From Desulfobacteraceae bacterium (GTDB lineage Bacteria; Desulfobacterota; Desulfobacteria; Desulfobacterales; Desulfosarcinaceae), in the NCBI GenBank assembly GCA_024230435.1, contig JAAERL010001226.1, positions 1 through 37,730 of the forward strand: 37,730 nucleotides of DNA. Direction: 5' to 3'. Positions 101 through 18,340 of this stretch are shown in pieces. Made by a program: the position numbers and the translations under genes. The notes under the pieces were generated by a model, which did no database searches, was not told the origin of the DNA, and saw only the letters and a program-made list of their open reading frames with translations. How positions within the stretch are numbered: the stretch's first letter is position 1; every line of letters starts with the position of its first letter.

Positions 101-1615
101 TTATCTTTCTGCAAAATCCTCAATTTCTGGATGGACACTATTTAGGGTCTTAGCCGGTATGAGTTCATGGGGGCTATGGAGCTGTTTATCAGCCTTTGCT
201 TCAGGTAAAAGCGCTTCGAGCTTGGAGATCATCTCCTGATCAAGAATATGCTCAATTTCATCTGCCGCCCAATCCACCTGCCCTGCTGCGATATCTGCAT
301 GGCTTATAAGATAAGCTTCCCAGAGCCGATGCTTGCGAACGGCGTGTGTTGCCTGCACAAGACCGGTCTGAGTGAACTGATATTCACCGGATGGCGTTTG
401 ATTCAGCAGACCTGTTTTGCACAATCGGCCCAATGCCCTCTTTAACTGCCCCGGGCGCCAGGATCTGCGGGCCAGAAGATCTTTAAACCTCGGTCCGGGG
501 CAAGATGTTCTCAACAGATCCAGCCCTTGTATCCCGCTTGTTTCCAGCCATTCGTAAAGCTCCCTGAGCAGATTTTCACGAATAATTTTTGTGCGTAACT
601 GCAGCCGCTCGACAACCAGGCGCAGCAACCCGCGTTGAGTTCCAAACGCCAGGCTCAATAAAAAAAGCGCGGATGCCGTCAACACTATTACCGCACCGGC
701 GGGCAAATTGGCCATCAAGGCCGAAATACCGGCTCCTATCATACCGCTCAAGGTTCCAAACAGCCCTGACAGCCAAAGCATCGCTGATAGGCGGTGAGTC
801 CAAAAACGCGCAGCCGCGGCAGGTATGATCAACAATGCAACCACCAGGATCAATCCCACGGCCTGCAACCCGACAACGGTAACCACAACCACCAGGGTCA
901 TCATGAAAAAATCCAAACGGGCCACCGGCCACCCCTGGGTAAAAGCATATGCCGAATCGAAACAAACCAAAGTGAATTCCTTAAAAAACAACATACAAAA
1001 CAACGCCGCCACCAGAGCCGTAACAGCAATCAAAAGAGAATCTAAAAAAAGCATGGAAGCGGTTTTACCGTAAATAAAAGACATAAGCCCCGCTGAATTT
1101 CCAGAAGCCATGCGCGTGGCCAGCCCCATTATGGCAATACCCAACCCAAAAAATACGCTCAATACAATTCCCAATGCCGCATCATCTTTTAATCTTGAAT
1201 AGCGCTCAATAACGAGAACCGCAACCGTTGCGATAATAGAAAAAAACGCGGCCCCTATAATCAGGCCTATTAAATGCTTTCCCTCTCCCAGGATATAAGA
1301 CATCAGCATAAAGGCTAAAGCAATACCCGGTAGCGTGGCATGACTCAACGTGTCGCTTAAAAGCGCACGTTTTCGGAGAAGTAAAAACGTCCCGGCCAAT
1401 CCCGCCGCCAATCCCAGCAGGCCAGTACCAATGATGACGACTCGCGTATTGTAGTCCTGCAAGCTAAAAACTCTCAGCAAATCAGAAAGTACCGCCCATT
1501 GAAAGCCTTGATCCGTCAATCCGTTCGCCCAGGCATGGGATTTTAAAAAAACCGCGGATAATAAAACAGCCCCGGCCAGCCAAGGCCAATTCATTTTAAA
1601 TGACAGCCGCATCAT
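101..1615 (-). CDS. Metal ABC transporter permease fused to a DtxR/MntR-type metalloregulator
   Basis: 504 aa. Residues ~55-325 are a multi-pass ABC-3 family permease (TroC/MntB/ZnuB type) in the inner membrane, with a typical RxxLLSDxLSH stretch at ~81-91. Residues ~343-425 look like a winged helix, and 425-470 match the DtxR/MntR dimerisation and metal-binding segment (KHRLWE at 428-433, DEIEH at 452-456). Aligned by eye to B. subtilis MntR, His429, Glu433, Asp452, Glu455 and His456 fall on metal ligands; the Cys used by DtxR is absent, which hints at Mn(II) rather than Fe(II). The layout is like chlamydial YtgCR, where a regulator is released from a permease fusion. The ATG at 1613-1615 has AAGGG 8 nt upstream. 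It is the last gene of the operon, separated from the ATPase gene by a hairpin element. The fold calls are firm; release of the regulator is inference. Confidence 0.93.
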   Translation of the reverse strand: MMRLSFKMNWPWLAGAVLLSAVFLKSHAWANGLTDQGFQWAVLSDLLRVFSLQDYNTRVVIIGTGLLGLAAGLAGTFLLLRKRALLSDTLSHATLPGIALAFMLMSYILGEGKHLIGLIIGAAFFSIIATVAVLVIERYSRLKDDAALGIVLSVFFGLGIAIMGLATRMASGNSAGLMSFIYGKTASMLFLDSLLIAVTALVAALFCMLFFKEFTLVCFDSAYAFTQGWPVARLDFFMMTLVVVVTVVGLQAVGLILVVALLIIPAAAARFWTHRLSAMLWLSGLFGTLSGMIGAGISALMANLPAGAVIVLTASALFLLSLAFGTQRGLLRLVVERLQLRTKIIRENLLRELYEWLETSGIQGLDLLRTSCPGPRFKDLLARRSWRPGQLKRALGRLCKTGLLNQTPSGEYQFTQTGLVQATHAVRKHRLWEAYLISHADIAAGQVDWAADEIEHILDQEMISKLEALLPEAKADKQLHSPHELIPAKTLNSVHPEIEDFAER

Positions 1616-2715: not shown

Positions 2716-3714
2716 CTAACGAATTAATTTGCCCTGCATCCCGCCTCTAACCGCCTTGCCTCCGAGCGCCCTGGTAATGGTGGTAATATTGTGATCAATC
2801 ATGCCAACATAGGTACCCTCATAGGTTCCGTCCGGTCCCATGGCGTCAGAAAAAAGCTCTCCGCCGATAAATACTTTATGCCCCCGGAACCTGGCGCCCT
2901 CAATAAGGGCCCTGACGTTCTTATCTGAAACACTGCTTTCTACAAATACCGCCGGGATCTTGCGCCGCACCAGAGTACCTACAATACGGTTGATATCTCT
3001 CAAACCGGCTTCAGACTCGGTAGAAATACCCTGAATTCCCAAAACCTCTATGCCATAGGCCCGGCTCATGTAATTAAAGGCATCATGGGCGGTTATCAAA
3101 AGCCGCTGCCGGACGGGAATTGAGCTTATGCACTTGCGGGCATACTCATTTAACGTTTTTAGCAATTGCCGGTAAGTGGAAGCGTTGCTGCGATATTCTT
3201 GCGAATGCGCCGGATCAAAGGCCGCCAAGGCACTGGTCACCACATCCACGGCCTTGATCCACCCGCCCACATCCATCCACACGTGGGGATCATGATGGCT
3301 GGTTAAAGGATCTTGAATCAAATAATCCTTTTTCAAAAGCTCGGTAACGGCAAAAACCGGGAGCCTTTCCGATACCTTGACTAAAATGTTAGCCATCTGC
3401 CCTTCAAGAAGAAGCCCGGCATAAAAAATAATATCCGAACGTACCAAAACAGCCACATCACTCCTGGCCGGATTGTAAATATGGGGATCAACACCAGTTC
3501 CGATAATGTGTGTCACTTTGGCTTTATCCCCGGCTACCTCCCGAACGATATCGGCTACCATACCAACGGTAGCGCCAACTTTATAAGGATATGAACCTTT
3601 ATATCCGGCAACAGCGCTTCGTGATAAAAAAAACACGGTAAGAACCGCAAACACCGGTATCAGCCATTTTAAGCAAAAAAATCGCCACGGATAAGACCAT
3701 TTTTCAACCGCCAT
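2716..3714 (-). CDS. Metal ABC transporter substrate-binding protein (TroA/ZnuA cluster A-I)
   Basis: 332 aa periplasmic metal-binding protein. A basic N-terminus and hydrophobic stretch (~17-32) ending in SAVA at 33-36 look like a Sec signal peptide, mature from ~37. Likely ligands are His78 (DPHIY), His144 (HDPHVW), His210 (TAHDAF) and Asp290 (FSDAMG), the His3-Asp pattern of T. pallidum TroA rather than the His-His-Glu-Asp of PsaA/MntC. There is no long His-rich loop as in many ZnuA proteins. The start is the ATG at 3712-3714, which has GGAGGG 4-5 nt upstream; an in-frame ATG 16 codons earlier lacks this. It is the first gene of the operon, read from the palindrome-bearing promoter at 3749-3798. 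Confidence 0.95.
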   Translation of the reverse strand: MAVEKWSYPWRFFCLKWLIPVFAVLTVFFLSRSAVAGYKGSYPYKVGATVGMVADIVREVAGDKAKVTHIIGTGVDPHIYNPARSDVAVLVRSDIIFYAGLLLEGQMANILVKVSERLPVFAVTELLKKDYLIQDPLTSHHDPHVWMDVGGWIKAVDVVTSALAAFDPAHSQEYRSNASTYRQLLKTLNEYARKCISSIPVRQRLLITAHDAFNYMSRAYGIEVLGIQGISTESEAGLRDINRIVGTLVRRKIPAVFVESSVSDKNVRALIEGARFRGHKVFIGGELFSDAMGPDGTYEGTYVGMIDHNITTITRALGGKAVRGGMQGKLIR

Positions 3715-3748
3715 ATTACCCTCCAATGCAAATATTTTTATAAATAAA

Positions 3749-3798
3749 AAAATACTAAGCATCCCGAAATTTTGGCAACCAAAATATATATTTTGGCA
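3749..3798 (-). promoter_or_regulatory. Candidate promoter with overlapping palindromic operator of the metal-uptake operon
   Basis: TTTTGGCAACCAAAA (3770-3784) and the perfect 18-bp palindrome CCAAAATATATATTTTGG (3779-3796) share a half-site. Seen another way, ATTTTGGCA occurs at 3769-3777 and again at 3790-3798, exactly 21 bp apart, two helical turns. On the minus strand TTGCCA (3773-3778) lies inside the first palindrome and is followed after 18 bp by TATTTT (3749-3754), a plausible -35/-10 pair. A metal-loaded DtxR/MntR-type repressor bound here would block the promoter, and the operon encodes such a domain. The palindromes are directly visible; binding is inference. Confidence 0.6.
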
Positions 3799-4394: not shown

Positions 4395-7300
4395 TTACTT
4401 GCGAAACGTCGAAAACCAGTTCAATTGCGATATGCTCTGGTATAAACTAGTGAATGCGGATAAGGGGCCGCTTTTATCGGGCTTGACGCTCTCACGCTCG
4501 ATAGCTTCAGTTAATCTTGGATTTATTTTTTCAGCAAATTTTGAATTAAAGTCGATTGCTTTTTTTAAATTGGTGATTGCGCCAGGGTAGTCTTTGTTTT
4601 CGAACATGGCGTTCCCAAGATTAAAGTATGCGTCAGCGTCGGTTGGATTTAATTCGATTGCCATTTTATAATCAGCCTTTGCGCCTTCGTAGTCGTTTGT
4701 ATAATCCTTGGCGGTGCCACGGTTGTTGTATGCGTCAGCATATTTTGAATCTAATTTGATTGCCTCATCAAAATCACGGATTGCGCCAGGGTAGTCTTTG
4801 TTATCGAGCTTGAGTTTCCCACGGTTGTTGTATGCGTCAGCATATTTTGAATCTAATTTGATTGCCTTAGTAAAATCTTCGATTGCTTCTTTGTGGTTGC
4901 CTTTACTGACCTTGGCCAACCCCAATTTGTTATATGCTACAGCTAATCTTGGATTTAATTCATCAGCTAATTTTGGATCTAATTCGGTTGCCGTTTTAAA
5001 AGCCTTGATTGCGTTTTCGTAGTTGCCTTTACGTAACTCGGCCAACCCCAATTTGTTATATGCTTCAGTTAATCTTGGATTTATTAATTTAGCTAATTTT
5101 TGATCTAATTCTTTTGCTTTTTCTAAATTGGTGATTGCGCCAGCGAAGTCGCTTGATTCATACTTGGCGTTCCCAAGATTGTAGTGTGCGTCAGCGTATT
5201 CTGGATTTAATTGGATTGCCTTAGTAAAATCTTCGATTGCTTCTTTGTGGTTGCCTTTACTGACCTTGTCCAACCCCAATTTGTTATATGCTACAGCTAA
5301 TCTTGGATTTAATTCATCAGCTAATTTTGGATCTATATTTTTTGCTTCTTCTAAATCGGCGATTGCACCATCGTAGTTGCCGTCATCGAACTTGAGGCTT
5401 TCACGATTATGGTATGCGTTTGCATCTTTTTTATCTAATTTTATTGCTTCATCTAAATCTTTAATTGTTTTATCGATGCGGACGGCAGAAAAATTAGCAA
5501 GTGCGCGTTTTTTGTATGCTTGAGCTAATTTTGGATTTATGTCATCTAATTTTGAATTTAAATATTTTGCCCTTTTAAAATCACGGATTGCGCCATCGTA
5601 GTCTTCCTTTATGAACCTGTCGCTCCCACGCTCGATATATGCTACAGCTAATCTTGGATTTAATTCATCAACTAATTTTTGATCTTTTTTTTCTTCAGCT
5701 ATTTTTTTTGCTTCTCTAAAATTGGTGATTGCGCCAGGGTAGTCTTTTTTTTCGAGCATGACGACCCCAAGATTAAAGTGTGCGTTAGCGTTATCTGGAT
5801 TTAATTTGATTGCTTTTTCTAAATTGGTGATTGCGCCAGGGTAGTTTTTGTCTTTGATCATGGCGGCCCCAAGATCGTTGTATGCTTCAGCGAATTGTGG
5901 TTTTAAATATATCACCCTTTTAAAATCACGGATTGCGCCAGGGTAGTTTTTATCGTTGAACCTGTCGCTCCCACGCTTGTTTAAAGCTTCAGCTAGTTTT
6001 TGTTTTACTTTATCAGCAAACTTTTGTTTTATTGATACATCTAAGTTTAAATTTAACTCTTTAGCCAACTGCAAATCATAGATTGCGCCCTTTAAGTTGT
6101 TCTTTTCGTACCTGAGGGCCCCACGTTTGTAGTATGCGTCAGCTAATTCTGGTTTTATTGTTTCAGCTAATTTTGAATTTGATTTGATTGCCTCTTTAAA
6201 ATCACGGATTGCACCATCGTAGTCTTTTGTACGATAATTGGCGATTGCACGACCGTGGTATACATTAGCGCCTTTTTTCTTTAATTCGATTTCCTTATCA
6301 AATTCTTTTTTTGCGGAAACGTTTTTTTCATTTAATACGATTGCCTTATCAAAATCTTTTTTTGCGCCATCGTTGTCGCCTGTTTTCAGCATGGCATATC
6401 CACGATTGTAGTATGCGGAAACGTTTTTTTCATTTAATTCGATTGCCCTATCAAAATCTTTTTTTGCGTCATCGTTGTAGCTTTTTTTCAGCCGGCCCAG
6501 TCCAACTCTGTTATATGCTCTTGATAGTGCCGCATCATTCCTTTTACTCTTGGCGCCTTCAAGATTTTTTTTGGCATCAGTGTTTGTTGGATCTAATTTG
6601 AATGCCTTTGCATACTCATCGACTGCACTATCGTAGTTGCCTTTATCGAGCTCGGCCTGTCCTCTTATGTTATATGCTCCTAATAATAGTAGTGTCTCAT
6701 TATTTCCTTTAGACTTTTTGGTCTCAAAATTTGTTACTGGACCAGCTAATATTGAAATTATTGATTCAGCTAATTCTGAATCTAATTTGATTGCCGTATT
6801 TAAATCAACGATTGCGTCTGGGTAATTTTCAAGATCGAGATTGACGCGCCCAAGATAGTAGTGTGCTTTAGCTAATTTTTGATCTATTTCTTTAGCTAAT
6901 TTTGGATCTATTTCTTTAGCTATTTTTTTTGCATTTTTAAAATCTTTGATTGCATCATTGTAGAGTTCGTTCTGGAGCTTGAGTTTCCCATGATTATAGT
7001 AAGCCTCAGCTAATTTTTGATCTATTTCTTTAGCTAATTTTGGATCTATTTCATTAGCTAATTTTTTTGCATTTTTAAAATCTTTGATTGCATTTTCTAA
7101 ATTGGTGATTGCGCCTTCGTAGTCGCCTGCCGTTTTTTTGTCAAGCCCACGGTTATAGTCTGCATATGCCTTTTTTATAAGTTCACGATTGGCGAGCTTA
7201 AGATTATTTTTTACGTCAGCTAATTTTGGATTTAATTCATCAGCTAAATTTTGATTTAATTTGATTGCATCATTAAAAAGCTTGAATGTTTCTTCAAAAA

Positions 7301-8987
7301 TCCTGATTGCGCCTTCGGAGTTGCCCTTACGGACTTCGGACCGCCCACTTTCGTAGTATGCGTCAGCTAATTTTGGAGTTACTTCTTGTTCTAATTCTTT
7401 ATTTGATCTGATTGCCTCAATAAAATTGGTGATTGCGCCAGCGAAGTCGCCTGATTCATACTTGGCGACCCCAAGATTGTGGTGTGCTTCAGCGTATTTT
7501 GGATTTGATTTGATTGCCCATTCCAAAGCCTTGATTGCGCCAGGGTAGTTTTTGTCTTTGATCATGGCGACCCCAAGATTGTGGTGTTCTTCAGCGTATT
7601 TTGGATTTTCTAATTCAGCTAATTTTTGTTTTATTGATTCAACTAATTTTTGATCTTTTTTTCCAGCTATTTCTTTTGCATTTTCAAAATTGGTGATTGC
7701 GCCAAGGTAGTTTTTGCCTCCGAACATGGCGCACCCACGATAGTAGCATGCTTCTGCTTTTACTTCTTGTGATACTGAATCTGATACGATTGCCTCATCT
7801 AAATCATCGATTGCTTCTGAGTAGTTTTTTGCATAATACTTGGCGCACCCACGATAGTAGAACGCTTCTGTTTTTACTTCTTGTGATACTGAATATGATT
7901 TGATTCCCTCATCTAAATCATCGATTGCTTTTGAGTAGTTTTTTGTATGATACTCGGCGGCCCCACGACAGCAGTATGCTTCTGCTATTACTTCTCGTGA
8001 TTCTAAATCTGATTCTAAATTGATTACATCAGTAAAACGTTCAATCGCAGTATGGTAGTCGCCCTCACGGGCCTTGAGCATCCCACTATTGTAGAATGCA
8101 ATGGCTGCCTTGTCAGAAGCAACCTTTGCGCCTTTGGGGTCGTTTGATTTTTCCTTGATAATCTCTAAATAGACGATCCCAAGATTGTTTTGTGCGGCAG
8201 CGTTGTTTGGATTTAATTTGATTACCTCTTTAAAAGCTGCCATTGCGCGAGCGTAATCGCCTGATTCATAGATGGCGAGATACCCAAGATTGTTGTGTGC
8301 GTCAGCATATTTTGAATCTAATTTGATTGCCTTTTCATAACATCTCATTGCGATAGAAGTTTTGTCATTACCATCTGAGCCTAATTTTTCCAGTTGGAGC
8401 CCATACTTATTGTATGCTTTTGCTACTGCTTGATCTACTGCTTGATCTATTGATTCAGCTAATTTTGGATCTATTTTTACAGCTAATTCTTTTAATTCTT
8501 TTAATTCTTTAAATACTTCTAATTTTTCTAGATCTTCTAATTCTTTTAATTTTTCTGATTTTTTTGAATTGGTGATTGCGTCATTGTAGTCTATGTTTTC
8601 AACCAAGGTATTCCCACACTTTTTGAATTTTTCAGCTAAACTTTTTTGTATTTCTGCTTTTTGTTTTTCATCTGAAGATAAATTTTTTAACTCTTCATAA
8701 TGCTTGACTGCAATTTTTAACTGATCTTTTGCGCTGTGGAACCATTTGAAGTCTCTACGATAAATTTCGCTATCCGCCACAATAATGCAGTCTTTAATCT
8801 TATTTTTTAAACTCTGGAGTTTTTTCACGTTATTTCCGTTATTATTCGGGGGAGGGATTTTAGCTCTTGATTTTCCTCCGTTTGACGGAACCAAAAGTTG
8901 TACCAGTTCTTTCCGGTCTAAAACCTCTTCATTATTCTTAAAATTCGGCTCATTTTTTCCATGTACTGATACTGATGCACTATCCAT
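4395..8987 (-). CDS. Giant tetratricopeptide-repeat protein (1530 aa)
   Basis: After a polar, low-complexity N-terminus (~1-60) nearly the whole protein is TPR units: repeated Y(N/H)xxGxAxxxxxxYxxAIxxFxxAIxLxP patterns such as KNYPGAITNLEKAIKLNP, often joined by helical linkers of the DPKLADELNPRLA type. By eye there are some 35-40 units. No signal peptide, membrane segment or enzymatic domain is seen. TPR solenoids bind proteins or peptides; the partner is unknown. The start ATG is supported by GAGAGGAAC ~7 nt upstream, within a leader that is homologous to that of the gene at 9839-13675. The composition is A/T-rich. Some units are almost identical at DNA level (4861-5334), a sign of recent repeat turnover. 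Expression of so large a uniform frame is likely, as it has no internal stop. Confidence 0.9.
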   Translation of the reverse strand: MDSASVSVHGKNEPNFKNNEEVLDRKELVQLLVPSNGGKSRAKIPPPNNNGNNVKKLQSLKNKIKDCIIVADSEIYRRDFKWFHSAKDQLKIAVKHYEELKNLSSDEKQKAEIQKSLAEKFKKCGNTLVENIDYNDAITNSKKSEKLKELEDLEKLEVFKELKELKELAVKIDPKLAESIDQAVDQAVAKAYNKYGLQLEKLGSDGNDKTSIAMRCYEKAIKLDSKYADAHNNLGYLAIYESGDYARAMAAFKEVIKLNPNNAAAQNNLGIVYLEIIKEKSNDPKGAKVASDKAAIAFYNSGMLKAREGDYHTAIERFTDVINLESDLESREVIAEAYCCRGAAEYHTKNYSKAIDDLDEGIKSYSVSQEVKTEAFYYRGCAKYYAKNYSEAIDDLDEAIVSDSVSQEVKAEACYYRGCAMFGGKNYLGAITNFENAKEIAGKKDQKLVESIKQKLAELENPKYAEEHHNLGVAMIKDKNYPGAIKALEWAIKSNPKYAEAHHNLGVAKYESGDFAGAITNFIEAIRSNKELEQEVTPKLADAYYESGRSEVRKGNSEGAIRIFEETFKLFNDAIKLNQNLADELNPKLADVKNNLKLANRELIKKAYADYNRGLDKKTAGDYEGAITNLENAIKDFKNAKKLANEIDPKLAKEIDQKLAEAYYNHGKLKLQNELYNDAIKDFKNAKKIAKEIDPKLAKEIDQKLAKAHYYLGRVNLDLENYPDAIVDLNTAIKLDSELAESIISILAGPVTNFETKKSKGNNETLLLLGAYNIRGQAELDKGNYDSAVDEYAKAFKLDPTNTDAKKNLEGAKSKRNDAALSRAYNRVGLGRLKKSYNDDAKKDFDRAIELNEKNVSAYYNRGYAMLKTGDNDGAKKDFDKAIVLNEKNVSAKKEFDKEIELKKKGANVYHGRAIANYRTKDYDGAIRDFKEAIKSNSKLAETIKPELADAYYKRGALRYEKNNLKGAIYDLQLAKELNLNLDVSIKQKFADKVKQKLAEALNKRGSDRFNDKNYPGAIRDFKRVIYLKPQFAEAYNDLGAAMIKDKNYPGAITNLEKAIKLNPDNANAHFNLGVVMLEKKDYPGAITNFREAKKIAEEKKDQKLVDELNPRLAVAYIERGSDRFIKEDYDGAIRDFKRAKYLNSKLDDINPKLAQAYKKRALANFSAVRIDKTIKDLDEAIKLDKKDANAYHNRESLKFDDGNYDGAIADLEEAKNIDPKLADELNPRLAVAYNKLGLDKVSKGNHKEAIEDFTKAIQLNPEYADAHYNLGNAKYESSDFAGAITNLEKAKELDQKLAKLINPRLTEAYNKLGLAELRKGNYENAIKAFKTATELDPKLADELNPRLAVAYNKLGLAKVSKGNHKEAIEDFTKAIKLDSKYADAYNNRGKLKLDNKDYPGAIRDFDEAIKLDSKYADAYNNRGTAKDYTNDYEGAKADYKMAIELNPTDADAYFNLGNAMFENKDYPGAITNLKKAIDFNSKFAEKINPRLTEAIERESVKPDKSGPLSAFTSLYQSISQLNWFSTFRK
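4861..5334 (-). repeat. Near-identical 120-bp duplicated TPR segments inside the giant gene
   Basis: Positions 4861-4980 and 5215-5334 differ at a single base (GGCC versus GTCC), 354 bp apart, while the sequence between them is far more diverged. Both encode the same run of TPR helix and linker (AYNKLGL.KVSKGNHKEAI). Similar close pairs occur near 6880-6960/7010-7092 and near 6311-6415. They indicate recent unequal exchange or gene conversion. Confidence 0.85.
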
Positions 8988-9838: not shown

Positions 9839-12800
9839 CTAAAAATAATTCCCTTCATCGAAATCATTTTGTGCCTGCTTATATACGTCTGTTTTATTAT
9901 TAGTTTTGTAACTAAGCCCTTCTATTAGTTGCGGCTTGTTAGCCTCAATAGCTTTAGTGTACAAATACTCGTAGACCTTTTTGGAACATCCATTTAATAC
10001 AATCTCTTGAATGGAATCCATATCATCGTTTTGTACCAATTTATCTAAATGTTCACGAGCTTCTTTTATATCAATTTTAGGATGCGATAGCAGCAATTTT
10101 ACAACATCGGTGTGGCCAAAGCGTGCTGCCCCAAATAACGGTGTTTGGTCTTCTCTATTAGTCTTATTCACCTTAATATCAGGATGCTCTATCAGCAATT
10201 TTACAATATTAACGAGGCCATATGTTGCTGCCCGATCTATCAGTGTCACGCCATTTTTATCAACCATATTCACATCACCACCGGCATCTGAAAACTTCTT
10301 TAACCATTTAGCATCCACTTTATAAATTTGTTTAGAAAAGTTGACGGCATCTTCCTTCTTTTTACGCTTGGCGAGCTTAAGATTTTTTAATGCGTCAGCA
10401 GATTCTGAATCTAATTCGATTGCCTTTTCAAAAAACTTGAGTGCGTTTTCGTAGTTGCCTTTACGTAACTCGGCCAGTCCACTACTGTTGTATGCTTTTG
10501 CTTTTGCTTTTGCTTGAACCTCATTCTTTTTACGCTTGGCGAGCTCAAGATTTTTTAATGCGTCCGCAGATTCTGAATCTAATTTGATTGCCTTATCAAA
10601 AAACTTGATTGCGACTTCGTAGTTGCCTTTATGGAACTCGGATAGTCCTCTATCGTTGCATGTTCTTGCTTGAACCTCATTCTTTTTACGCTTGGCGAGC
10701 TCAAGATATTTTAATGCTTCAGCGTATTTTGGATTTAACCGAATTGCATTGGTATAATAATCGATTGCCTCATCGTAGTTCTTTTTATCGAATTGGGTAT
10801 TTCCAAGGTTGCAGCATGCTCTTGCTTGAACCTCATTGTTTTTACGCTTGGCGAGATCAAGATTTTTTAATGCGTCCGCAGATTCTGAATCTAATTTGAT
10901 TGCCTTTTCAAAAAACTTGATTGCGACTTCGTAGTAGCCTTTATAGAACTCGGATAGTCCACTATTGTTGTATGCTTTTGCTTGAACCACATTCTCTTTA
11001 TGCTTGGCGAGCCCACGGTCGAAGAATTCGTCAGCGAGGTTTGGATTTATTGATTCAGCTAATTTTGGATTTAATCTGATTGCCTCTGTATAATTGGTGA
11101 TTGCGTCCTTGCGATTGCCTAATTTTTCCTTGGCGCTCCCAAGATTGTAGTATGCGAAAGCTATTTCTGGATTTATTGTTTCACTTAATTCTGGATTTAA
11201 TTCGATTGCAAATTCATAATATTTGATTGCGTCATTATAGTTGAATATATGACACATGAATTTTCCTCGTTCTTTCACGTAATGCGCTATAGTTTGACCA
11301 TATTTTTCCTCATAGCCGTTCGGACGGTGTGTTCTTTTAAGTTCAACGAATGTTTTAAGAGATGTTTCGTCATTTTCAATCAAAGCTTTATCTAATGCTA
11401 ATTGAAGAGGGGTTTGTCCATATTTGTTTTTTATACTATCGGACCACAGGTATTTGTCGAATTTATCCATCCGGACCGTCATGATTTCCCGGATCATCGT
11501 TTCATTTGCGGTCATAGCGGCGACATGCAACGGCCGGTTGCCATTTTTATCCTTAGTATTTTTTTTGGAAAGCTGTACGACAATTTCGTACATTTTGTCA
11601 TGGTGTTCGGTTGGATTTATTTTACTCAAATTGGATTCCAAACTTTTCAGGATACGTTTCGGCTTAAAATCTAAATCCATCTTGTCTTTCATATCCCTGA
11701 CCAATTGATCTGCGGCATCTCTTCTCCGAGTGGTATGTACTACTTGCAGATTATTGCATACATTTTTTACACCTTTTATTTCATCATCGGTCATTGGTTC
11801 GGGAAAAGTTCTCAACAAATCAACCACCGTCATGGCCTGTTGCTGGTCCAAGTTTACCTCAGCCTTTAAGGTATCGACCAATTTATCTGCTTTTTCGTTG
11901 CCATGTTCTGCTGAGTTTAACCGGTTCCAAAATTTCCTGGTCATTTTTCCATTTTCAAAAATCACAGTAGGCACGTATGTTTTATTTTTGCGGAAAATAT
12001 CCAATTTTTTGCTTGATTTGTGAAGAAAAGTCCATATTTTGACTGAATTTTCTTTGCTGATTAAAGAGTTTTGGGTATCGTCTGTGGTCCATTCATGGAA
12101 CATGTATTTATTCACAGCACAAATATTGTTTTCCCGGCAAAATGATAAAATAATCGTTTCATTAACATTAAATGTTTTAGCAAGGTCTTTGGGGGTAGCG
12201 TTGAATTTGGCCATACGCTTGACTAAAGGTTTATATCTTTGCAGACAGTTAATTGCATGCGAAGGCTCCATTGCAGTGCTTGCCATTGTACTTGGCATTT
12301 TAGACCATACTGTTGGAGCCCTTTGAATGTTTTCTGAATTATTTGGCATCCTGACATTTTCGAGGTCGCTCCTGTTTTTTAGCGCTTTATTTTTCTTGCC
12401 TACATCAAAGGCCGTTTGTGCTGCAGATGTTCCAATTTTTATTACCGCCGATTCTGGTGATGACGATTCAAAAGCCAATGTGCAAGCATGGTATAAAAGA
12501 GTAGTTGCATCCACGCCAATATTTCTGTAGTGGGTGCCTTTAAAGGGATTCCTATTGCCCTTTACCGTTTTGGACAGCTTTTTCTTAATCTCCTCACGCC
12601 TGTGATTGAGTGTTTCTGTAATTTTTTCTACTGATTCGCCGCTAAGGATAAATTTTTTACTCTCAATAAGCCTATTTGCCTTGGCTACGATATGCCTTCC
12701 CCGGGCTTTATCCAGTTCATTGGATTGGCTTCTATCGTCTTTATAAACATCTTCTTTGCATTCTTCTTCGTTATTTTTTTGTTCAGGTTCAATTTTCGCA

Positions 12801-13675
12801 TCAAATAAATTATCTGGTTTATTTTCAAATAATTTATTCACCGTTTTCTGGTCGCACTTATTATTATTTAGCAATTCGTTTTTCAAATCTTCGGCATTTT
12901 TGCGTTCCTCATCCGACTCTAAAAACATTTGGGAATAATACTTATAATAAAAATTGTTATTCGGATCATTGGGGTCGAGCATTGTCAAATCCTTGTCCAA
13001 CAAGAGATCGGCCACGTTGCTCATATGTTGATTCGTTTTATTAATCTTGGATTTTAAATTAACTCCGGTTACCGCTTGGTCAGTGACCTTGTATGCGGTC
13101 ATGCCGACAAGAAGAATAATTCCTACAGTACCAAAACCCGTAAGCCCTAAAGCCACGACACCTGCTGACGTACCAACAACCTTCAAAGCCGTATCTTTTT
13201 TAAACTGATCAAGATCTGTTTGTTCATAATTATATATGGAGGTAAGCGCCTCCACAATATAAGTCCCCAATTTTTCGTTTTCTTGTTTAAATATATTGAC
13301 TGCTTCTTCGTTACGCTCGGCAGTGTATTGGTAACGACCTATCTTTTTCAGATCTTTATAATTTGGACCATCGCTAAAACAACCATTTTCACTGCCTGCA
13401 GTACTATCGGCTGAGGAATGTGTTTCACTCGGGTCAGTATCGGGTTCGGTCCAGCGCCAGTTTTTGTTACTAAAAACAAGCCGGGAATTCTTGTTAAGTT
13501 TATTTATGTTATCTAAAGTCAATTCCTGTTCCTGGGAGCTGGCTTTTGGTTTTTCGTTGCTTTGCCTACCTCTGCGCAAATTCTTGAGGTGATTAACCTC
13601 GTTTGAATCCCGGTGCGAAATCGTAAGGGCCCTGAAACTCGATTCATAGCTGCGATCTTCTTCTATCGTTTTCAT
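9839..13675 (-). CDS. Ankyrin-TPR-ankyrin repeat protein with a hydrophobic N-terminal segment (1278 aa)
   Basis: The order is: a polar charged N-terminus; a Gly/Val-rich hydrophobic stretch at ~163-196 that could be a membrane hairpin; a ~450-residue region I do not recognise; ankyrin repeats from ~705 (NGNRPLHVAAM, YGQTPLQLAL); TPR units ~810-1110 separated by near-identical KNLELAKRKKNEVQA linkers; then two clear ankyrin repeats at ~1138-1205 (NGVTLIDRAATYG, QTPLFGAARFGHTDVVKLLL). Such proteins bind other proteins, and ankyrin/TPR combinations are common among secreted effectors, but I see no export signal. The start is supported by GAGAGGAAC before the ATG. The end looks truncated within a TPR unit (NDFDEGNYF then stop), with a remnant of the next unit at 9675-9737. 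Its leader matches that of the other giant gene. Confidence 0.85.
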   Translation of the reverse strand: MKTIEEDRSYESSFRALTISHRDSNEVNHLKNLRRGRQSNEKPKASSQEQELTLDNINKLNKNSRLVFSNKNWRWTEPDTDPSETHSSADSTAGSENGCFSDGPNYKDLKKIGRYQYTAERNEEAVNIFKQENEKLGTYIVEALTSIYNYEQTDLDQFKKDTALKVVGTSAGVVALGLTGFGTVGIILLVGMTAYKVTDQAVTGVNLKSKINKTNQHMSNVADLLLDKDLTMLDPNDPNNNFYYKYYSQMFLESDEERKNAEDLKNELLNNNKCDQKTVNKLFENKPDNLFDAKIEPEQKNNEEECKEDVYKDDRSQSNELDKARGRHIVAKANRLIESKKFILSGESVEKITETLNHRREEIKKKLSKTVKGNRNPFKGTHYRNIGVDATTLLYHACTLAFESSSPESAVIKIGTSAAQTAFDVGKKNKALKNRSDLENVRMPNNSENIQRAPTVWSKMPSTMASTAMEPSHAINCLQRYKPLVKRMAKFNATPKDLAKTFNVNETIILSFCRENNICAVNKYMFHEWTTDDTQNSLISKENSVKIWTFLHKSSKKLDIFRKNKTYVPTVIFENGKMTRKFWNRLNSAEHGNEKADKLVDTLKAEVNLDQQQAMTVVDLLRTFPEPMTDDEIKGVKNVCNNLQVVHTTRRRDAADQLVRDMKDKMDLDFKPKRILKSLESNLSKINPTEHHDKMYEIVVQLSKKNTKDKNGNRPLHVAAMTANETMIREIMTVRMDKFDKYLWSDSIKNKYGQTPLQLALDKALIENDETSLKTFVELKRTHRPNGYEEKYGQTIAHYVKERGKFMCHIFNYNDAIKYYEFAIELNPELSETINPEIAFAYYNLGSAKEKLGNRKDAITNYTEAIRLNPKLAESINPNLADEFFDRGLAKHKENVVQAKAYNNSGLSEFYKGYYEVAIKFFEKAIKLDSESADALKNLDLAKRKNNEVQARACCNLGNTQFDKKNYDEAIDYYTNAIRLNPKYAEALKYLELAKRKKNEVQARTCNDRGLSEFHKGNYEVAIKFFDKAIKLDSESADALKNLELAKRKKNEVQAKAKAKAYNSSGLAELRKGNYENALKFFEKAIELDSESADALKNLKLAKRKKKEDAVNFSKQIYKVDAKWLKKFSDAGGDVNMVDKNGVTLIDRAATYGLVNIVKLLIEHPDIKVNKTNREDQTPLFGAARFGHTDVVKLLLSHPKIDIKEAREHLDKLVQNDDMDSIQEIVLNGCSKKVYEYLYTKAIEANKPQLIEGLSYKTNNKTDVYKQAQNDFDEGNYF

Positions 13676-16088: not shown

Positions 16089-16181
16089 GTGCAATACATG
16101 CTATTGCGTTTATAAACGGATTAACATTTGGCTCAAAACAGCCGATTAGAACTACTGGAACCTCAAAAAAAGGGGGATATT

Positions 16182-17246
16182 ATGATTAAAGGGTTTCTAA
16201 ACCGTACTTTGACACGGAGGCGTTTTCTGGAAAAATCGGCCTGGGCCGGCGCGATGGTTGCGCTTACCGGGCTAAGACCCTTTGCTGCAAATCTTTTTGC
16301 CGATGTACGGACCTACCGGGGCAACTCTTTTTTGCCGCCGGCCTACCGGGCAATCCGTTTTGGTATTGACGGTTTTGTGGAAAACCTTAAACAGGTGGCC
16401 CCCGAAGGGATGGGAATTGAATTTTTCGATTCAGGCACACTGATGAAAGCCGATGCCCAGCTTCCCGGACTCAGGGTGGGTAATATCCAATTCATGTTCC
16501 ATTCCAGTACCTATATCGCTGATGCCTTACCTATTTTGGGGGTTATTGAGCTGCCCGGTATTTGCGAACATTTGTATGAGCACGGGGAGCGTATGGCCAT
16601 GGAGTCTTCCTTGTGGAACCTGATCAACGATCAGCTTGCCAAGGACAACTTGTTCATGCTGTCGTCCGGCGGCGGTATCATGGAACCGGAATACATCTGG
16701 AGCAGCAGCACCAAGGTTACCAGTTTATCCGACCTGAACGGCAAACGCTGCCGTATTGTCAGCCCTGTTGCCGATGAATTACTCAAGCGATTTGGGGTGA
16801 CCGGGATGCGTCTGCCTTCCTCTAAGATTTTACTTGCTTTGCAGCGCCGATCAATTGATGCCGTGCTGGCCCCGGTCAATACAATCGTAGCCCGCAATCT
16901 GCAAGAGCATTTGCGGTATTGTTACCAGTTGCCGGTCACTGGAGCCACGCATGCTGTTTTTCTGTTGAAGGATTACTGGGAACAAATGCCTGAAAGCCAC
17001 AAGGCAGCCTTTTGGCAGGCTGGCAAGTGGTATGATGAAAACCAAGCCATAATGGGTTACAAGAAAATTCCCATTGAGCAGTACTGGGCTACATTGGAAA
17101 AGGCCGGTATCCAGATTGTTCGTCCGACCTCCGAGGAACAGTCGGTTTTTGTAAAAAATGCAAAGCCCAATTGGCAGGCCTGGGAAAACCTGGTTGGTGA
17201 ATCAGTGGGCCGGCGCGCCATTGACCTGGCCCTGGGAAAGGCTTGA
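16182..17246 (+). CDS. Tat-exported TRAP-type (DctP family) solute-binding protein 1
   Basis: 354 aa. The N-terminus carries the twin-arginine motif TRRRFLE at 11-17 before a hydrophobic stretch, so it should be exported folded through Tat. The rest is a DctP/TRAP binding protein: FFDSGTLMKADAQLPGL, LINDQLAKDN, then the DLNGKRCRIV segment whose Arg191 aligns with the carboxylate-binding Arg of TRAP proteins such as SiaP, and LALQRRSIDAV. I chose the ATG at 16182, with AGGGGG 5 nt upstream. No DctQ or DctM membrane subunit is in the window. It is paralogous to the next gene, about half identical. Together these suggest an organic-acid sensor component or a scavenger feeding a remote transporter. 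Confidence 0.9.
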   Translation: MIKGFLNRTLTRRRFLEKSAWAGAMVALTGLRPFAANLFADVRTYRGNSFLPPAYRAIRFGIDGFVENLKQVAPEGMGIEFFDSGTLMKADAQLPGLRVGNIQFMFHSSTYIADALPILGVIELPGICEHLYEHGERMAMESSLWNLINDQLAKDNLFMLSSGGGIMEPEYIWSSSTKVTSLSDLNGKRCRIVSPVADELLKRFGVTGMRLPSSKILLALQRRSIDAVLAPVNTIVARNLQEHLRYCYQLPVTGATHAVFLLKDYWEQMPESHKAAFWQAGKWYDENQAIMGYKKIPIEQYWATLEKAGIQIVRPTSEEQSVFVKNAKPNWQAWENLVGESVGRRAIDLALGKA

Positions 17247-17299
17247 TACATTATTAAAACCGGAATCAAACAGGTTTAATCATTATCTGGAGGTTGATT

Positions 17300-18340
17300 A
17301 TGTACAATCCCGCCAGAAGACAACTTCTAAAGGCCGCCTGCCTGGGAGGCGCATCGATTTTGTTTGCCGGGCTTTACCCTCATAAGGCTTCGGCGTCGGC
17401 TATGGACATATATAAAGGTGTGACTTACCTGCCACCGGCTTACCGTGGCCTGCGTTATGGTATTGATGGTTTCATCGATACGCTTAAACAAAACATATTC
17501 GACGGCACGGAAATTCAGTTTTTCGACTCAGGCTCTTTGATGAAGGCCGATGCCCAGCTTCCCGCGCTTATGGAAGGCAACATTCAGTTCATGTTTCATG
17601 CCACCACCTATATCACCCGGAGTGTACCCATTGTTGGGGTCACAGGGCTGCCGGAAATCTGCGATCAGTTGTACAAACACGGTAACCGCCTGGCCATAAA
17701 ATCCCCCCTGTGGAGACTGATCAACGATCAACTCGCCAAAGACAATCTTTTTATGCTGACCGTGGGCGCCGGTCTGACCGAGTCCGAGTATATCTGGAGC
17801 CGTTACAAACAAATCAAAGAGTTAACCGATCTGAAAGGGATGCGTTGCCGGGTGGTCGGGTCTGAGGTGTCTCGATTGATTGAAAAGTTTGGGGGCAAGA
17901 CAACCCGGATTCCTTCGTCCCAGACCTACCTGGCCCTTCAACGCGGCACTGTGGATGCGGCTGTCCTGGCCATTAACACTGTTATTGCCCGCAATTTGCA
18001 GGAGCAGTTGCGTTTCTGCCTGAAACTGCCCGTCACCGGCGTGGGGGTGGCCGTATTTTTTAAAAAGGACTACTGGGACAGTATGCCTGCTTCCATCAAA
18101 GAGGCTTTTTGGAAGGCCGGTAAATGGTACGATACGCATATGTCGCGCACCGGTTATCAGCAGATCCCCCGCGAACAATATTGGCCGTTAATACAAAAGG
18201 CCGGTATCACAATTACAATTCCTACGGATCGGCAAAAGGCTGATTTTTTGCGCCAGGTCAAACCGATCTGGAACTGGTGGAAAGGCCAGGTCGGCGAAAC
18301 TTTGGGGGCAAAGGCCATTGCCCTGGCAAGAGGAATGTAA
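17300..18340 (+). CDS. Tat-exported TRAP-type (DctP family) solute-binding protein 2
   Basis: 346 aa, tandem paralog of the preceding gene with the same landmarks: a twin-arginine signal (ARRQLLK at 5-11), FFDSGSLMKADAQLPAL, LINDQLAKDNLFML, the LKGMRCRVV segment with the conserved Arg, LALQRGTVDA and a KKDYWDSMP stretch near the end. The start is the ATG at 17300, with TGGAGG 6 nt before it; a TTG two codons earlier is less likely. The gene begins 53 bp after its paralog and its stop overlaps the next start by one base (TAATG), so it is translationally coupled to the sensor kinase. This coupling is the best evidence that the binding protein works with the kinase. Confidence 0.9.
   Translation: MYNPARRQLLKAACLGGASILFAGLYPHKASASAMDIYKGVTYLPPAYRGLRYGIDGFIDTLKQNIFDGTEIQFFDSGSLMKADAQLPALMEGNIQFMFHATTYITRSVPIVGVTGLPEICDQLYKHGNRLAIKSPLWRLINDQLAKDNLFMLTVGAGLTESEYIWSRYKQIKELTDLKGMRCRVVGSEVSRLIEKFGGKTTRIPSSQTYLALQRGTVDAAVLAINTVIARNLQEQLRFCLKLPVTGVGVAVFFKKDYWDSMPASIKEAFWKAGKWYDTHMSRTGYQQIPREQYWPLIQKAGITITIPTDRQKADFLRQVKPIWNWWKGQVGETLGAKAIALARGM

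Follow-up and report, generated by a model that had tools for sequence, protein, structure and literature searches.

A DtxR-like domain fused to a metal ABC permease keeps its metal site and lacks the DNA-binding signature of its family: a possible former repressor retained as an importer sensor

What does a DtxR-like domain do when it is joined to the membrane subunit of a metal importer? The question is raised by a gene on contig JAAERL010001226.1 of a Desulfobacteraceae bacterium (GCA_024230435.1; the contig is labeled C1225 in our genome set), of which we analyzed a stretch of 37,730 nt, called the window here. The first-pass annotation of this DNA described the gene as a permease carrying its own regulator. 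A single permease-repressor fusion is already known, and two reports (PMC5599777, PMC7755916) describe Chlamydia YtgR as the C-terminal domain of YtgCR, which shows iron-dependent DNA binding at the ytg promoter and is freed from the permease by cleavage. According to a review, permease-repressor fusions occur in 11 phyla and YtgR-style regulation may exist throughout bacteria (PMC5599777). Our search of the open-access literature found no report of a double fusion, of such a domain without its DNA-binding signature, or of a function for it in transport.

The gene is a single unbroken 504-codon open reading frame (ORF), and Pfam analysis identified within it both an ABC-3 permease (E = 7.1e-61) and Fe_dep_repr_C (PF02742; E = 3.1e-11; score of 43.5 bits, with a cut-off of 27). 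The annotated fusion of a permease to a DtxR/MntR-like domain is therefore confirmed, and with it the likeness to Chlamydia YtgCR, also a metal permease ending in a DtxR-like domain. We refer to the protein as P1 (Table 1). A PDB sequence search aligned ScaR, SloR, and DtxR to P1 residues of about 390 to 475. By eye, residues 1 to 40 resemble a signal peptide ahead of the first membrane helix, and close relatives look the same. The window ends 100 bases past the gene, at the start of the contig, an edge position that could suggest an assembly artefact or an idiosyncrasy of one genome. That explanation has next to no chance of being right, since it is refuted by relatives: the same fusion is found at 58 to 64% identity in six Thermodesulfobacteriota loci (L045 to L049 and L051) and across the 80 named loci described below.

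Table 1. Features of the P1 gene and of the importer operon, in window coordinates
Feature	Position	Strand	Basis
P1, permease plus DtxR-like domain, 504 aa	101..1615	-	ORF, Pfam, AlphaFold model
ABC-3 permease part of P1, residues 56-324, PsaBC-like fold	644..1450	-	Pfam, structure match
30-residue helix, residues 330-359, includes helix 1 of the DtxR-like domain	539..628	-	AlphaFold model
Winged-helix part, residues 340-414, predicted fold kept, without PF01325	374..598	-	Pfam, alignment, model
Recognition helix, residues 388-400, within the winged-helix part of P1			Alignment, model
Metal-binding/dimerization domain PF02742, residues 415-475, with H429, E433, D452, E455, and H456	191..373	-	Pfam, alignment
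ABC ATPase, 274 aa	1855..2679	-	ORF; best NCBIfam matches are Mn and Mn/Fe transporter ATPases, below cut-offs
TroA-like metal-binding protein (ZnuA family)	2716..3762	-	ORF, Pfam, structure-database sequence match
Candidate operator ahead of the operon, made of palindromes 3769-3785 and 3779-3796, which overlap	3769..3796	.	Sequence

In 8 of 60 related genomes (G005, G012, G015, G016, G019, G022, G029, and G039), P1 is followed directly by a second DtxR-fused permease, which we call P2. The P2 of the organism itself lies near the end of another contig, C1041 (L034:13540-14844; PF00950, 3.3e-44; PF02742, 4.7e-18). From the synteny in the eight relatives, we infer that C1225 and C1041 join and that P1 sits next to P2. 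Past P2 on C1041 there is a convergent stand-alone DtxR (L034:12770-13267), followed by feoA-like and feoB-like ORFs (names by inspection). Within L034:10197-13267, this free DtxR is divergent from the feoA/feoB-like ORFs and, having a Cys where DtxR has C102, may regulate in response to iron. G047 and G055 have a lone fused permease with a longer tail. In two single-permease relatives (L043:66-1589 and L044:6092-7642), the DtxR-like domain is followed by a tail that resembles by eye the third (FeoA/SH3-like) domain of DtxR, and Pfam gave no FeoA match in these tails at an E value of ≤0.01.

We determined the spread of the fusion by a GTDB genome scan with domain alignment, using the single motif HRLWE[SA]YL. 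The scan confirmed 320 places, and the best 80 were taken. Both permeases were fused in 66 of these 80 loci, the first only in 14, and the second only in none, a ratio that describes the best 80 of 320 motif-chosen loci and not importers at large, 49 of the 80 being from Planctomycetota and most from draft metagenome-assembled genomes. The remainder of the 80 were distributed over Verrucomicrobiota (7), Thermodesulfobacteriota (6), Pseudomonadota (5), Bacteroidota (2), Bdellovibrionota (2), and one locus each in Hydrogenedentota, Kiritimatiellota, Lentisphaerota, Myxococcota, and Spirochaetota, with four loci lacking a phylum name. Among them, the double fusion occurred in eight named phyla (in Spirochaetota by way of odd ORF calls) and the single fusion in four, with Verrucomicrobiota showing both. 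The P1 alignment (A2) held 74 P1 sequences of the 80 loci plus that of the window, with L060, L068, L074, L086, and L112 omitted as truncated and L116 also omitted; the P2 alignment (A3) held 64 of the 65 available P2 sequences, with L112 omitted. L116 was kept out of every domain alignment because of its odd ORF calls but is counted among the 66. The sets of relatives overlap, with G005, G015, G016, and G022 being loci L048, L051, L046, and L045, respectively.

P1 is the third gene of a putative importer operon in which the binding protein, the ATPase, and the ABC-3 permease are encoded on the same strand. By inspection, the binding protein probably starts at 3714, behind a CCTCC at 3719-3723. 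Its closest solved relative is Treponema TroA (6.5e-71), and its ligand positions H94, H160, H226, and D306 (ORF numbering) give a His-His-His-Asp set, of which the last three (H, H, and D) were present in 74 of 74 aligned operons and the first H in 73, with one gap. Judged by its components, the importer appears to be of the TroABCD/YtgABCD type, with Mn, Fe, and Zn as candidate substrates. The stretch between the permease and ATPase genes holds, at 1630-1812, a dispersed repeat about 180 bases long, the ends of which are inverted (GGCGATT...AATCGCC, by inspection). It has at least 40 copies in the genome at 94 to 100% identity, including the window copy (40 of 552 candidates scored), and looks like a MITE-type element. 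Elsewhere in the window, inspection by eye showed two adjoining genes for very large proteins of 1530 and 1278 aa (4395-8987 and 9839-13675) built of tetratricopeptide-like repeats, to which the second adds ankyrin-like ones. It also showed, at 16128-18340, a pair of neighboring and similar proteins that resemble TRAP-type binding proteins, with a sensor kinase and a response-regulator kinase after them.

The metal residues named in the first-pass annotation (His429, Glu433, Asp452, Glu455, and His456) were exact. They align to DtxR positions 79, 83, 102, 105, and 106, and we take the DtxR metal ligands to be H79, E83, C102, E105, and H106. Among 83 P1 sequences, H429 was kept in 83, E433 in 82, E455 in 82, and H456 in 81, and the equivalents of these four ligands were present in 69 of 69 P2 sequences. 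These residues indicate that the fused domain is still a metal site. The fifth position, 452 (DtxR C102/MntR E99), holds Asp in 74 of the 83 P1 sequences and Glu in the other 9, and in the 69 P2 sequences it is Glu in 33, His in 15, Met in 7, Asp in 6, and other residues in the remainder. The helix-1 ligands of MntR, presumably D8 and E11, are replaced in the P1 of the window by N348 and R351, a change that the first-pass annotation had overlooked. At the E11 position, Arg is found in 73 of 83 P1 sequences, and Gly (44 of 69) or Ala (20 of 69) is found in P2; at the D8 position, P1 has His (37) or Asn (33; n = 83) and P2 has Asp (64 of 69). His occupies the DtxR H98 position in 69 of 69 P2 sequences. 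Because distinct residues are found at the E11, D8, and C102 positions, the P1 and P2 domains appear to be specialized differently, and metal sensing could suffer from the loss of the two helix-1 ligands of MntR. An earlier assignment to manganese, made from the missing Cys ligand, was dropped because the Asp is typical of P1, the helix-1 ligands are replaced, and the binding protein is TroA-like with its His-His-His-Asp set.

The DNA-binding part gave a different result. When the fused proteins were scanned singly, PF02742 was found in 75 of 75 P1 and 64 of 64 P2 proteins, and PF01325, the DNA-binding signature, had no match in the window ORF and none at an E value of ≤0.01 in 75 P1 or 64 P2 proteins (0 of 139). 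Stand-alone DtxR proteins of the same loci served as controls and matched PF02742 in 32 of 32 cases and PF01325 in 31 of 32, although these controls were picked with a hidden Markov model of four whole DtxR proteins, which favors proteins that keep the DNA-binding part. Where a locus has a long-type free regulator, the pairwise identity was 0.65 for P1 (n = 20) versus 0.63 for the free proteins (n = 20) in the metal domain and 0.22 versus 0.49 in the recognition helix. The P2 domains of these loci (n = 13) gave 0.56 for the metal domain and 0.26 for the recognition helix, and all 35 free proteins together gave 0.46 and 0.38. At the position of DtxR Q43, which we take to be a DNA contact, 45 of 69 P2 sequences carry Leu, Val, Ile, or Ala, and 44 of 83 P1 sequences carry Arg or Lys. 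The recognition helix of P1 has a mean charge of +2.3 (+1.7 in the free regulators), and because of this positive charge, unspecific DNA binding by the P1 domain is possible. The claim of a working DNA-binding regulator is not supported, given the missing PF01325 in all 139 fused proteins and the unconserved recognition helix. Because PF01325, a defining feature, was tested for and did not appear, the fused domain is better not filed as a DtxR-family repressor; it may nonetheless work like the DtxR metal switch.

The predicted structure kept the DtxR fold. The AlphaFold model of P1 (pLDDT 89.3, pTM 0.82) matched PsaBC with a Z score of 30.4 over 272 residues at 33% identity and DtxR with a Z score of 15.6 over 128 residues at 1.9 Å, and domains 1 and 2 of DtxR, MntR, and IdeR gave Z scores of about 14 to 16. 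The P2 fold matched DtxR with a Z score of 18.2. The description of the regulator domain as complete thus held for its fold and failed for its DNA-binding signature, PF01325 being unmatched in the ORF. In the P1 model, the last membrane helix (306-324) is followed by a joint of five residues (325-329) and then by the long helix of Table 1, whose second half forms domain helix 1. The pLDDT, averaged in blocks, was 94 to 97 over residues 321 to 360 and about 96 to 97 at the joint. The P2 model (L045, pLDDT 92.4) has helices at 270-288 and 294-324 with the same five-residue joint, so that in both models the last membrane helix and domain helix 1 are two helices with five residues between them. 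The domain should be cytoplasmic because positive loop residues lie on the side of the C terminus (by inspection). Helix 1 responds to metal in DtxR and MntR, and its close tie to a membrane helix in the models would be what a gate needs.

The models also bear on release of the domain from the membrane. The first-pass annotation had raised cleavage as in YtgCR, to which we found no pointer: the predicted joint is short, with no evident long linker for a protease and with high pLDDT throughout. Production of a free regulator from an internal start was rejected, since 16 of 83 P1 genes had, close to the joint, an internal start accompanied by a Shine-Dalgarno-like stretch, versus 12.9 expected, which is no clear excess; one of these was an ATG, and none was in the window.

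We compared the fused domains with free ones in a tree of 28 of 83 P1, 26 of 69 P2, 2 of 2 single-permease, and 34 of 35 free domains. All 56 sampled fused domains and the 34 free domains fell on opposite sides of a 98% branch in this tree, which used few columns, a quick method, and a drawn root. P1 formed its own group (support of only 72), and P2 grouped in all but one row, consistent with P1 and P2 domain lineages that are largely separate.

If the fused domain acted at DNA, an operator and the regulators around it would be informative. The annotation had proposed 3749-3798 as the target of the domain. Palindromes do exist there (Table 1), but in relatives, a related site mostly accompanies a free MntR-type regulator at the same locus. 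The sequence WTTTNGGTTNNCCNAAAW, at ≤1 mismatch, lies upstream of 6 of 74 binding-protein genes (10 single-base shuffles gave a mean of 0.1 and a maximum of 1), and five of the six carriers (L037, L041, L047, L048, L050, and L079) also encode a long-type free regulator at the locus. The exception is L037 (G019), where the site is perfect and the 15-kb stretch shows no free regulator. Within the best 80 of the 320 loci, WTTTNGGTTNNCCNAAAW at ≤1 mismatch occurred in four, all four with a long-type free regulator, versus 19 of 69 overall (Fisher P = 0.0045). The candidate site in the window has 2 mismatches to WTTTNGGTTNNCCNAAAW and a 3-base spacer versus 4 in the others (by inspection). A genome-wide search for a palindrome regulon with WTTTTGGTTNNCCWAAAW at 2 mismatches was uninformative, with 97 matches in the organism's own genome versus 146 in the reversed control.

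Free regulators were common. A free DtxR ORF was present in the locus in 32 of the best 80 of 320 loci. We searched 46 of 47 further genomes, all but L110, for PF01325; 34 had a match elsewhere, these positives being taken without singling out each match and three of them lying in open frames of 384 to 820 aa, and 12 had none at an E value of ≤1e-6. A Fur match was present in 12 of these 12, several of which are Phycisphaerales or Thermoguttaceae, and in these genomes there could be no protein of DtxR type other than the fused domain. Among 10 fused relatives searched, nine had PF01325 at 60 bits or more; G016 had 28 bits only, no better than the false matches of the organism's own genome. That genome has one free DtxR (on C1041; PF01325, 1.2e-15) and two Fur matches, and two further DtxR candidates, on C397 (27.1 bits) and C1055 (25.6 bits), were rejected as LexA-like and Lrp/AsnC-like ORFs by inspection.

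Three functions for the fused domain can be set against these results, and the one that we tentatively place foremost, ahead of a repressor and then of a structural role, is that of a cytoplasmic metal sensor, descended from a repressor, that controls or gates its own importer. High cytoplasmic metal would bind the domains of P1 and P2, which would associate at the cytoplasmic face in the manner of a DtxR dimer; a shift of helix 1 would be transmitted across the five-residue joint to the last membrane helix, so that import would be slowed or stopped (trans-inhibition). Transcription of the operon would be left to a free DtxR or Fur protein. We favor this function because PF02742 is kept and PF01325 is gone, with a recognition helix that has diverged at equal metal-domain identity; because the fusion is mostly double, with steady differences between P1 and P2, a 98% branch separating them from free domains, and a short joint leading into a long helix; and because free DtxR ORFs are frequent in the loci and PF01325 is found elsewhere in most of the further genomes. 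The 12 genomes without a DtxR match are its main weakness. The five residues that separate the last membrane helix from helix 1 also count against a gate, as does YtgR, which has the same general build and is reportedly DNA binding and cleaved (PMC5599777, PMC7755916).

That Chlamydia precedent, with YtgR bound to the ytg promoter and freed from YtgC by cleavage (PMC5599777, PMC7755916), is an argument that the domain is a tethered or cleavable repressor, loaded by import and binding an operator of the operon from the membrane or after proteolysis. The complete DtxR fold, the palindromes upstream of the operon, the 12 of 46 genomes with no DtxR in the locus and no PF01325 match, and the perfect site of L037 (G019) all fit such a repressor. 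We nevertheless consider it rather unlikely, given the absence of PF01325 from every fused protein scanned, the unconserved recognition helix, the lack of a predicted long linker or of excess internal starts, the strong PF01325 matches in nine of 10 fused relatives, and the company that WTTTNGGTTNNCCNAAAW keeps with long-type free regulators. A structural or metal-handling part, which would hold the permeases together or take metal at the channel exit with no sensing or gating, agrees with the strong conservation of the metal/dimerization part in both subunits and with their largely separate, matched lineages. This role is improbable: the domain is on one permease only in 14 of the best 80 of 320 operons, pure assembly leaves the near-universal retention of metal ligands unexplained, and ABC-3 importers that lack a DtxR-like domain, PsaBC among them, are functional.

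The system resembles several known ones and differs from each. Chlamydia trachomatis YtgCR (CT069, ytgABCD) is likewise a metal permease that bears a DtxR-like domain at its C terminus, and its operon encodes a binding protein, an ATPase, and two permeases (PMC5599777, PMC7755916); here P2 would be the fourth gene. Unlike YtgCR, whose YtgR domain reportedly shows iron-dependent DNA binding and cleavage, the present system has no DNA-binding signature, and its partner permease is fused too. It shares its gene set, and the nearest solved binding protein, with Treponema pallidum TroABCD; in troABCDR, however, TroR is a separate repressor gene according to the review (PMC5599777), whereas here a TroR-like domain sits on each permease. 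The permease fold is that of the PsaBC manganese importer of Streptococcus pneumoniae, but the PsaBC chain covers P1 residues 41 to 333 only, leaving the DtxR-like part without a counterpart in the match. The fold of domains 1 and 2 and the core metal ligands are those of DtxR, MntR, and IdeR, from which the fused domain differs in having no PF01325, in its replaced MntR helix-1 ligands, and in a helix 1 that lies inside a long helix from the membrane. The proposed role is like that of the trans-inhibition domains of MetNI and ModBC, as a cytoplasmic sensor that shuts an importer when substrate is plentiful. Those domains are on the ATPase and have other folds, and the domain here is on the membrane subunit.

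None of the 139 fused proteins in our scans has maintained the DNA-reading signature, while the metal site is kept, mostly on both permeases, which bears on the view, expressed in the review (PMC5599777), that YtgR-style regulation may exist throughout bacteria. The result is also a warning to annotators not to call these fused domains transcription factors. A branch of importers may have turned a duplicated DtxR-type repressor into paired sensors, one per membrane subunit, with a heterodimer that closes the channel through the membrane-to-domain helix; we offer this history with some doubt. If true, it would give a metal importer a route to sense its own product and provide a concrete system for the control of transport by cytoplasmic metal, in which a gene-regulatory metal switch would have become a transporter gate.
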